DNA of 64,000 nucleotides from Aeriscardovia sp. (GTDB taxonomy: Bacteria; Actinomycetota; Actinomycetes; Actinomycetales; Bifidobacteriaceae). Numbering within the stretch: position 1 is the stretch's first letter; each line of letters starts with the position of its first letter. The notes under the pieces are model-generated. The model was not told the DNA's origin. It was given only the letters and a program-made list of their open reading frames with translations, and searched no databases. The position numbers and the translations under genes are program-made. Positions 24,334 through 28,315 of the stretch are shown one piece after another. Where the stretch lies: NCBI GenBank assembly GCA_017632945.1, contig JAGBQH010000012.1:62001-126000 (forward strand), read 5' to 3'.

Positions 24334-25038
24334 ATGTTTATAGCAATAAGTTGCATAATACTGGTCGCGATCGCAGCTCCCATCATCCTCTACCTTGTAC
24401 TTAAATCTCCCTTCGGAGGCTATCCCTACTTTACCGCCACTATAGATATTTCCGGCAGAAAAAAGCCCGACACACAGGATTTGGTAGACGAGTACCTTAT
24501 CGAACACGGCATGAGGGATATAGAAAAAGAACATGCCAGAATAAGGGAATGGAAGAAAGAGTGTAGAAGGCAAATAGAAAACAGCCATTTAAAAGGAAGG
24601 CGGGAAAAACAATTTAAAGCCCTTGTAGACGACGATCATGCTTATCGCTTTGTAGTCTTCCGCCTTCAGACAAGGTATCAGCAGAGAAACTATCAGAGGA
24701 CGGCTTATAAGGTCAAAAATAGGGTAGGAGGCTTTGCCTGCAATTACACATATCTTGCGCAAAGAGATGAAATGCTGGCCTCCATAAATTACGAAACTAC
24801 CCTAAAAAAGTGGGACAGCGCTAACCAAAGGAAGCTGCTCACTCCAAAACTTAGGGAAGAAATCATGAAGAGGGACAACTACACCTGTCAGATATGCGGG
24901 AAGTATATGCCGGATAGAGTGGGGCTTCAAATAGATCACATCATCCCCATTGCAAAGGGCGGGAAAACCGTGCCCTCAAATCTTCAGGTGCTATGTTCCA
25001 GGTGTAATGGAAGCAAGCACGATAAGCTGGAAATCTAA
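24334..25038 (+). CDS. Membrane-anchored HNH endonuclease
   Basis: A 234-residue protein with a hydrophobic N-terminal span (residues 3-23, IAISCIILVAIAAPIILYLV) and a C-terminal HNH nuclease domain (about 180-234). The domain shows RDNYTCQICG, the catalytic core QIDHIIPIAKGG, PSNLQVLC and SRCNGSKHDK, i.e. two zinc-binding cysteine pairs around the IDHIIP histidine-metal motif, all intact. The middle is charged and helical. A nuclease fixed to the membrane is odd; comparable designs are seen in proteins thought to act on DNA entering the cell, but that role is only inference. GGGAGG lies very close to the ATG. It converges on the split membrane gene with a 3-base gap. Confidence 0.75.
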   Translation: MFIAISCIILVAIAAPIILYLVLKSPFGGYPYFTATIDISGRKKPDTQDLVDEYLIEHGMRDIEKEHARIREWKKECRRQIENSHLKGRREKQFKALVDDDHAYRFVVFRLQTRYQQRNYQRTAYKVKNRVGGFACNYTYLAQRDEMLASINYETTLKKWDSANQRKLLTPKLREEIMKRDNYTCQICGKYMPDRVGLQIDHIIPIAKGGKTVPSNLQVLCSRCNGSKHDKLEI

Positions 25039-25233
25039 TATCTATGGTTTTTGGCTTGTAATGCCAAAACTAGCGAGCCATGCACCAGCTGGGTCTGCAG
25101 GTCCGCTATATCCAAGATAAATTTTAGAGCCATCACTTAGATTCCAACTTGTATAAATTTGTTGTAAATCAGAAAATGAAATTTTAATCTTACCTTCTAT
25201 CGCTAGGACAGCTTGAGCTATAGCAGCCTTTAA

Positions 25234-25264
25234 TTCTGTTTCGACGGAACTGGGCATATGAAGT
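25234..25264 (-). repeat. Direct repeat copy 1 within duplicated domain
   Basis: These 31 bases are identical to 25741-25771, 507 bases away (a multiple of three). They encode the SSVETEL motif in the second domain copy. Base-level identity in a segment whose surroundings have diverged suggests gene conversion or a recent tandem duplication. Confidence 0.85.
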
Positions 25265-25740
25265 ACCTGTGCAACACACGTCATCATTGGATCCCATGTA
25301 TTAGCCCCACTGACATTTACTACTGGACCTCCTCCTGTTGAACCTATAAACGACAAATCATTGTTTGAAATCTCATTTTGCGTTTCGTAATTTGAACACA
25401 CAGTAGTTGTGGAATCGATATCCATAAGTGCGTCTTGATATGAACTTTCTTGAGTAGTTGCATTGCTATTGATAGAACTAGAATTTGAATTTCCATTTGC
25501 ATTGGTGCTACTTTCGGATGGTGATGAAGATGTTCCAGACAAAATGCTTTTGGTAACGCCAATTAATGCAGACCATGAACCTAGCGGAATAGCGGGTGGC
25601 CCATAACTTAAATAAATAGTGGATCCATCTTTTAGATTCCAGCTCGTATTGATATTCGGCAACCCTGAAAGTTTGGTTAGGAGATTAGAATTTTGACTTT
25701 CTTGTAGGACAGATACAACCTGGGCTATATCCGCTTTTAG

Positions 25741-25771
25741 TTCTGTTTCGACGGAACTGGGCATATGAAGT
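25741..25771 (-). repeat. Direct repeat copy 2 within duplicated domain
   Basis: Identical over 31 bases to 25234-25264 and encodes the same SSVETEL motif in the first domain copy of the split membrane protein. Confidence 0.85.
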
Positions 25772-26613
25772 TCCTGTATAATACAGTTCATTATTGGATC
25801 TAATGGAGTAGGTCCGCCAACTAAAATAGATGGTCCTCCATTCCCTGAATTATTGAAAAATGCCAAATCATCGTTGGAAATTTGACTTTTAGTTTCATAT
25901 TTTGTACATGTAGCTGCAAGAGTTACAGCTACGACAGCATCTGAAGCTGTATGGCTAGGCATTAAAGATGCTGATAGGTTATCCGTACTAGAATCCGAGT
26001 TTCCATTTTGCTGTTGTAAGGCTTCATTTATATAGAAGTTGTCAGCCTTGTAATCAGCGTCAATGTGGTTGTAATATGCTTTCCCTCCAACTAAGCCTAC
26101 AATAATGCAAATGATAACTGATGCGACAAATGGAATGGAGAATCTAGCAAATAGGAGTCTCTTCAAAGGGCTGACTCGTTTTGCGCCCTTTAAAATAAGT
26201 AGCGTAATCAAATCTACAAGAAATATGATCGCGGCAAGTATCGCACATATCCAGATCCATTAGAAATTACGTGTAACGATAAATTTGTATTGAGTATAAG
26301 CATATTCGGTGAATGAGGCAAAACAGAATCCGAAAGCTGCCGCAGAAAGGCTTATAAGCCCTATAAGGTAAAATGGGGGAACTGGTTTCATTTTCGAATT
26401 TTTAGCTGTAGATTTGACTCTCTCCGCGTTGGTGCTGCCTATTATTTGACTAGCGTTTTTCGTTTCAGTCGGTTTCTTTTCTTGTTCAGGATCCTCTCCG
26501 TCTTTTACAGAAATAGAATCTTCCCCTTGTTTTAGTTGATTATCAATCTTGTTGCTCTTTGCACTTTTCTCAAAAGGCTTGTCACCATGAGGCTCTTCAT
26601 CCTCTGAATTCAT

Positions 26614-27140: not shown

Positions 27141-28315
27141 ATGGAACAAGAACAATTTTCCGAATTAAAGTCGAAACTGGATACGCTCAAGGATAGGATT
27201 ACTTCTCAATATGAGGCGCAATCCGCGAGAGTTACCCCCCCCCTTCGGAATGGAATGAGAAGCAGACTGAAAATTATATAGTAGAGCCCTTGTTACGCGA
27301 TCTGGGCTTTAACCTTCAAGATCCGAACAGCCCCGAGGCCGCTGTCCCGGAATTTGACAGGGGCGTACGGAGCAGTAACACCCGTGTCGATTACGCCCTG
27401 TTTTTAAATTCTCAGCCTGTAATGCTTGTTGAGTGCAAGCAGCTGGGCGAACCTTTGGATAAGCATGTAAATCAGTTAGACGAATATTTCCGAGTACCCG
27501 GTGGCCAAATTAATACCGTAAAAATCGGGATTTTATCCAATGGAGATGAGTTTAGATTTTACACCGATAGCAAAGATCCGAATGTGATGGATCCCGAACC
27601 CTACTGGGTGTTTAAATTGTCCAAACTTTCTGATGGTGATGTCGAAACCTTATTACACTACACCGTTAAAAATTTGAAGGAAACTTTAAACGACCTTCCA
27701 GCAACCGTGTACGCTTCCCGACTTAAGCGCTGGCTGCTTGAACGGAATAAAGAGGAACTTGATTGGTTATACAGGGCCACTGCCAAAGAAATAAAAAGTG
27801 GCCAAAGAATTGGAAGTGAAGATACGACAAATGCGGAGAAAATCTGGACGTTAATCTTCCCGGTAAATAAAACGAAAGAAGGACCGACTGCGCTTGAGGT
27901 TGAGCAAAAAGATGGCGAACCTGAATCGGGTCAGGAAGAGTTTGATAAGGAAATAAGTTTGGCAGATTGTCCGAACAATATTTCTTCACTCCATCTGAAA
28001 ATTTCCGGATACAAAATTGAGGGTTCGGAGGTTAAAGATGTAAAAAAATGGTCTGATATGTTTGCTGATGTCATTAAAATCCTCTGTGAAAAATATGACT
28101 TGCCGGCCCATCTGAATCTTTCTGAAGAATCTACATGGCTTCGTTATAGTGTTGACGAACCATCCGGTAAAGTCGGCAGTCAGAATTGGATCAAGGTGAC
28201 AAATGATTACGAAATTAATGTTCATACGGATGCTAATGGGATAACCAGCAAACTAAAAAAGTGTTTTGCAGCAGTAGGTATCAGCGCAAACCAGCTAGTC
28301 TTTTATCTCCGATAG
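27141..28315 (+). pseudogene. Type I restriction R-subunit N-terminal-like nuclease, frameshifted at a C tract
   Basis: The coding sequence starts at ATG 27141 and runs in one frame to GTTACC; after the C9 tract (27235-27243) the protein continues in another frame as SEWNEKQTENYIVEPLLRDLGF and runs to 28315. With one more C (or two fewer) the product would be about 391 residues. It is an HSDR_N-type nuclease domain: the PD-(D/E)xK core is D34...E48-C-K50 of the downstream frame (DYALFLNSQPVMLVECK, about 27389-27439). No helicase, methylase or specificity gene is nearby, so it is a lone nuclease. As it stands the ATG frame ends after about 45 codons; a start at TTG 27290 would lose the N-terminal helix. 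Confidence 0.75.
27235..27243 (+). repeat. C9 homopolymer tract inside nuclease gene
   Basis: Nine consecutive C bases lie 94 bases after the ATG. The downstream conserved sequence is out of frame by one base at this point, so a tract of 10 (or 7) would restore the gene. Such tracts mutate by slipped-strand mispairing and are a classic phase-variation switch; a sequencing error at the homopolymer would look the same. Confidence 0.8.

Follow-up and report, generated by a model that had tools for sequence, protein, structure and literature searches.

The C9 tract at 27235-27243 (plus strand) of the window, the 64,000-nucleotide stretch of an Aeriscardovia genome analyzed here, very probably acts as a slipped-strand on/off switch within the coding sequence of an HsdR-type nuclease. 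The window is part of a 271,588-base contig, one of the 12 that make up a 788 kb genome of 99% completeness; close relatives of this genome were found among Aeriscardovia assemblies from metagenomes of the goat and water-buffalo abomasum. Direct inspection and translation place the tract between two intact plus-strand coding parts: an N-terminal part (27141-27234), comprising the ATG and 31 codons ahead of the tract and kept in four genomes, and the core frame 3' of the tract (27245-28315, including the stop at 28313-28315), which is conserved and contains zero further stops or frameshifts. With nine C residues, the frame opened by the ATG at 27141, which reads MEQEQFSELKSKLDTLKDRITSQYEAQSARVTPPLRNGMRSRLKII, is lost to the core at the tract and closes after 46 codons at the TAG at 27279-27281. 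The core frame, beginning PPPSEWNEKQTENYIVEPLLRDLGF..., offers no usable start codon 5' of the tract in the translated window. The tract itself encodes a proline run. A preliminary description of this locus had located its single frame change exactly at the nine C residues and calculated that ten would yield one frame of about 391 codons; both the placement and the arithmetic are correct.

To place the tract in its genus, we used seven Aeriscardovia genomes (G000, the source of the window, to G006), five of which carry the nuclease gene (G000, G001, G002, G003 and G006). The G006 ortholog is intact and has no tract, and the other four feature it at the same codons, as C9 in G000, C10 in G001, C9 in G002 and C9 in G003, these lengths being metagenome-assembly consensus values of a kind that can err in homopolymers. 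Each of the four copies with a tract is out of frame, with the core offset from the N-terminal part by −1 in G000 and G003 and by +1 in G001 and G002; no in-frame allele carrying the tract was found at this locus among the four. Such a uniformly off set would arise by chance with a probability of about 0.2, and may alternatively mean that the on state is costly. CCC accounts for 46% of the proline codons and ACC for 44% of the threonine codons in a sample of genes from the window, such that the chance of the three tract codons all ending in C in four genomes is about (0.46 × 0.46 × 0.44)^4, or near 1e-4, a rough figure that assumes free third-position drift and treats the genomes as independent. 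We had also considered a surplus of C runs as evidence for a switch and dropped it: C8 occurs 3 times in the window against 5.8 expected from shuffled windows, runs of nine C/G number 5 across the 788 kb genome, and the counts match the shuffled expectation. The significance of the tract is thus its conservation at the same codons in four species and not its length, which composition alone allows.

Comparable tracts interrupt further restriction genes in Aeriscardovia. In G000, an Eco57I-like adenine methyltransferase (PF07669) is split at a G9 that lies a little beyond the window, at contig position 129,233; its orthologs have a G10 in G001 and a G9 in G002, both out of frame, and a G8 in G003, where it forms a single frame of 659 codons, i.e., the on state. 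A second methylase is split at a G10 in G002. A Type III-like Mod (PF01555; MTase_III in PADLOC) reads through in frame at its G9 in both G001 and G006 and is out of frame at a G10 in G004, and an MmeI-like Type IIG enzyme is split at a G9 in G005 (L041, G005:C5:948) and intact in G003 (L062:349-3273). By our own count across the seven genomes, 12 of the 35 C/G runs of at least nine lie inside such restriction genes. These differences in length and frame between species indicate that the slippage device is general among the restriction genes of Aeriscardovia. Searches of G000 with MutS_V and NucS_C returned no match, whereas control genomes gave matches, a pattern that fits a slippage-tolerant cell and is no proof of one.

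Several further observations accompany this survey. In G000 the Eco57I-like methyltransferase is followed by a 1150-aa ResIII/T5orf172 protein, the two together spanning about 128,070-133,480 of the contig labeled C9 (L108:8074-13476), and the methyltransferase stop overlaps the start of the second gene as TGATG; this overlap may couple translation of the nuclease to that of the methylase, so that both would be off together. In G005 a G11 comes after the signal-peptide-like beginning of a large secreted protein that looks coiled-coil-like, and throws its body out of frame (L025, G005:C1:5980); this is possibly a phase-variable surface protein. G001 has a G11 just ahead of where a McrB-like AAA protein probably starts (L055, G001:C3:59628). 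G003 also codes for a second, tractless HSDR_N paralog (L062:3623-4777), which immediately follows the MmeI-like gene and precedes the copy with the tract by a few kilobases. The G002 assembly breaks inside the HSDR gene (contigs C42/C43) and that of G005 beside the place expected for it (contig C24); mixed populations there might have produced these breaks.

The coding parts on both sides of the tract have diverged mainly at synonymous positions. Between G000 and G002, dN/dS is 0.03 across the first 60 codons of the core and reaches 0.08 across 289 of its codons, and between G000 and G001 the core shows a synonymous difference of 0.75 against a nonsynonymous one of 0.15. For the N-terminal part, dN/dS is 0.055-0.059 (G000 versus G001 and G002). 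Comparisons with G003, a more distant genome, are weaker and gave 0.11-0.17 for the longer unsaturated core pieces and up to 0.47 for short stretches. With synonymous sites near saturation in the comparisons of this gene, these ratios indicate that purifying selection acts on it 5' and 3' of the tract alike and that it is thus no pseudogene. The HSDR gene is also far more divergent between G000 and G001 than its neighbors, whose synonymous distances are 0.15 for murC, 0.20 for alr, 0.36 for dnaG, 0.44 for the HNH gene and 0.95 for nnrD; therefore, HSDR alleles have probably been swapped between lineages, with the tract retained in the swapped alleles.

The selection data bear directly on the simplest alternative, that the gene was permanently killed by a frameshift of the ordinary kind in a long run of C. 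All four tract-bearing copies being out of frame would agree with such a loss, as would the G003 copy, which is also missing about 70 internal residues, in frame. A dead gene is nevertheless hard to reconcile with dN/dS values well below 1 on both sides at saturated synonymous sites, with a core free of more stops or frameshifts and with a tract that is itself conserved, and we consider this explanation very unlikely. The preliminary description had named a uniform C9 and further decay in the relatives as the marks of a plain pseudogene; what we found instead are C9, C10, C9 and C9 tracts set between differing flanking frames, with low dN/dS to either side, and the cross-species comparison of tract, frame and conservation supports its reading of a phase-variation switch.

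Conservation of four off copies would also be accounted for if the full protein were made by recoding at the C run, either through programmed ribosomal frameshifting or through transcriptional slippage, the latter being favored by homopolymers. The direction of the required shift is not constant among the orthologs (−1, +1, +1, −1 in G000, G001, G002 and G003), which argues against a fixed programmed ribosomal shift, although this argument bears on ribosomal frameshifting and not on transcriptional slippage; in-frame tract alleles at the sister loci likewise count against recoding, which we regard as unlikely. Penno et al. (PMC9187656) stress that G/C homopolymer tracts are hard to measure, and the frame change could in principle be a sequencing or assembly error. 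Such an error could alter the reported length but not the conserved tract, and independent assemblies from four species are all out of frame here, whereas the same kind of assembly yields in-frame tracts in the Mod and Eco57I-like genes. As the assemblies share the tract and the sister restriction genes show both on and off lengths, an isolated error is the most improbable of these explanations. A start-like codon in the core frame (TTG at 27290 of the window), whose position G000, G001 and G002 share, might instead initiate a shorter, always-on core protein. That product would lack helix 1 of the nuclease fold, which is conserved and contains the nearly invariant E14, a good ribosome-binding site was not seen by eye, and the conservation of the N-terminal part and tract would be left unexplained; internal initiation thus seems highly improbable, and a slippage switch is the reading we adopt.

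The protein under this putative control has the PD-(D/E)XK core that the preliminary description had recognized. Its HsdR-type nuclease domain (27245-27709, plus strand) matches HSDR_N in Pfam (PF04313, E 1.6e-11), and D58, E72-x-K74 and Q86-xxx-Y90 (numbered from window position 27218) are retained across 13 aligned relatives; we take these residues to be the PD-(D/E)XK and QxxxY motifs of HsdR. In a predicted structure (mean pLDDT 75.7), residues 1-164 find their best structural matches in HsdR structures (3h1t, Z 12.2; EcoR124I, about 9.6) and in the enzymes DrdV, BpuSI and BsaXI; the fold matches fall on HsdR and Type IIG enzymes. The 391-codon gene gave no match to an SF2 helicase, and hsdM and hsdS are absent alongside it; because all three are lacking, the protein, judged by gene content, is not a Type I HsdR subunit. 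A match to phrog_4225 (E 2.3e-31) places it with the stand-alone HsdR_N endonucleases, a group also found in phages; no relatives were confirmed on viral contigs.

The C-terminal domain (28013-28306, plus strand) has a predicted SeqA-like fold. Modeled alone, and with high confidence (pLDDT 89.7, pTM 0.85), it matches SeqA with a Z of 7.5-7.9 over 94-96 residues, below the guide line of Z 8, and the next fold follows at Z 2.6; Foldseek likewise placed SeqA first, at an E-value that is not significant. Sequence methods gave no corresponding signal: the Pfam SeqA model (PF03925) did not match the domain at E up to 5, and hhalign with the E. coli SeqA returned a probability of 0.3%. Sequence searches against solved structures had no hits for either the core or the C-terminal domain, and a plasmid search with the latter had no match. 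We describe the likeness at the fold level only and claim no residue-level identity with the DNA contacts of SeqA. SeqA is a binder of hemimethylated GATC, and the modeled fold raises the possibility that the nuclease may sense DNA through this domain and, more speculatively, that it may be a methylation-sensing nuclease. An HSDR_N relative from another genus of the family (L092, g13) carries at its C-terminus a RAMA domain (PF18755, E 8.8e-18). This is another candidate for reading methylation within the nuclease family, RAMA being a proposed, though disputed, reader of adenine methylation (PMC11037411). Together, the SeqA-like fold and the RAMA-bearing relative are at most suggestive of modification-dependent cleavage of a Type IV-like kind.

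The preliminary description had called this a lone HsdR-like nuclease. That term falls short in two respects, the predicted SeqA-like domain and the surroundings of the gene: an HNH nuclease gene with a hydrophobic N-terminus (24334-25038, plus strand; PF01844) lies upstream of the nuclease in 5 of the 5 genomes carrying it. The HSDR ATG follows the HNH stop by about 23 bases in G006, and the two genes are also close in G002 and G003. A syntenic membrane-protein gene on the opposite strand separates them in G000 (25042-26613, minus strand), where it has one in-frame internal stop, and in G001, where a diverged 573-aa homolog at the same place is intact (L019:3643-5364); we do not think that it is part of the switch. 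Other genes in the neighborhood code for a GNAT protein, nnrD, alr, dgt and dnaG. A scan for promoters detected sites no more often than chance. A pairing of the HNH protein with the nuclease is plausible on the basis of these five related genomes; around distant HSDR homologs of other genera, no HNH gene was seen within flanks of roughly 1.5 kb on each side. The joint absence of HNH and HSDR from G004 and G005 was dropped as proof of the pairing: the G005 contig extends about 270 bases beyond nnrD and the neighboring alr is missing from G004, so that a gap in the assembly may account for it.

The switch would then operate as follows. In the C9 state of G000, translation from the ATG at 27141 ends early, as described above; gain or loss of C units at replication would restore the full-length frame in some cells, and the population would be a mix of cells with and without the nuclease. 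As judged from its family, the enzyme most likely limits foreign DNA, such as that of phages, and it may act with the adjacent HNH nuclease. Switching within a population, together with its benefit, is what we infer from the comparison of sequences. A reason for such a device might lie in the independently switched adenine methyltransferases of the genus. In Pectobacterium, a methylation-dependent enzyme conflicts with an R-M system (PMC8989522); by analogy, and speculatively, a cell with phase-variable adenine methylases would be in conflict with a methylation-reading nuclease of its own, a switch being one solution. The fullest version of this idea is an undescribed methylation-sensing nuclease that joins an HsdR-type PD-(D/E)XK domain to a SeqA-like reader, is paired with a membrane-anchored HNH protein and relies on the tract to keep some cells with a compatible writer and cutter alongside those methyltransferases; we put it forward tentatively, as a scenario that is more doubtful than probable.

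The proposed switch has precedents at several levels. Within the same bacterial family, the pilus genes bbr_0113 and bbr_1889 of Bifidobacterium breve UCC2003 undergo G-tract replication slippage with measured mixtures of lengths (PMC9187656). There, too, two frames of one coding sequence are separated by an internal G/C tract of comparable length, although that switch controls pili and its slippage was measured, whereas here it is deduced across species. Homopolymer tracts likewise toggle restriction genes in Helicobacter pylori, where the C tract of the phase-variable enzyme JHP1272/HP1353-1354 codes for PPPP (PMC3936762), a proline run as in our nuclease, and in Campylobacter jejuni, which has a phase-variable Type IIG restriction enzyme (PMC4889913); both are methylase-nuclease fusions, whereas the Aeriscardovia protein has no methylase domain. 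Phase variation by a poly(A) frameshift was proposed for the hsdR of Mycoplasma agalactiae (PMC9465063), similarly a change of tract length in a restriction nuclease gene, but with an A tract rather than a C tract and in a full Type I HsdR with HsdM and HsdS, neither of which is present here. The stand-alone HsdR_N endonucleases of phrog_4225, with copies in phages and Bifidobacterium, share the length of 350-400 aa and an HSDR_N domain without a helicase; the other members examined are tractless and have different C-terminal domains, RAMA in one case. Finally, DpnI-like fusions of a PD-(D/E)XK domain with a winged helix are m6A-dependent Type IV enzymes (PMC11037411) and offer a parallel for a nuclease joined to a domain whose predicted fold resembles an adenine-methylation reader; their reader is a winged helix, whereas the SeqA-like one is a candidate by model only. 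The proposed switch is of a known kind, here in a nuclease with a candidate sensor domain.

For the Bifidobacteriaceae, the literature we found on homopolymer switching describes the pili of Bifidobacterium. In Aeriscardovia, whose genomes are smaller than 1 Mb, much of the restriction repertoire appears to be governed by switches of this type, and annotation pipelines would tend to label genes split by these tracts as pseudogenes. If confirmed, the SeqA-like domain on a restriction nuclease would represent a new type of sensor for methylation-dependent defense. If the restriction repertoire is indeed switched in this way, phage resistance, DNA uptake and methylation patterns would differ from cell to cell in a gut commensal.
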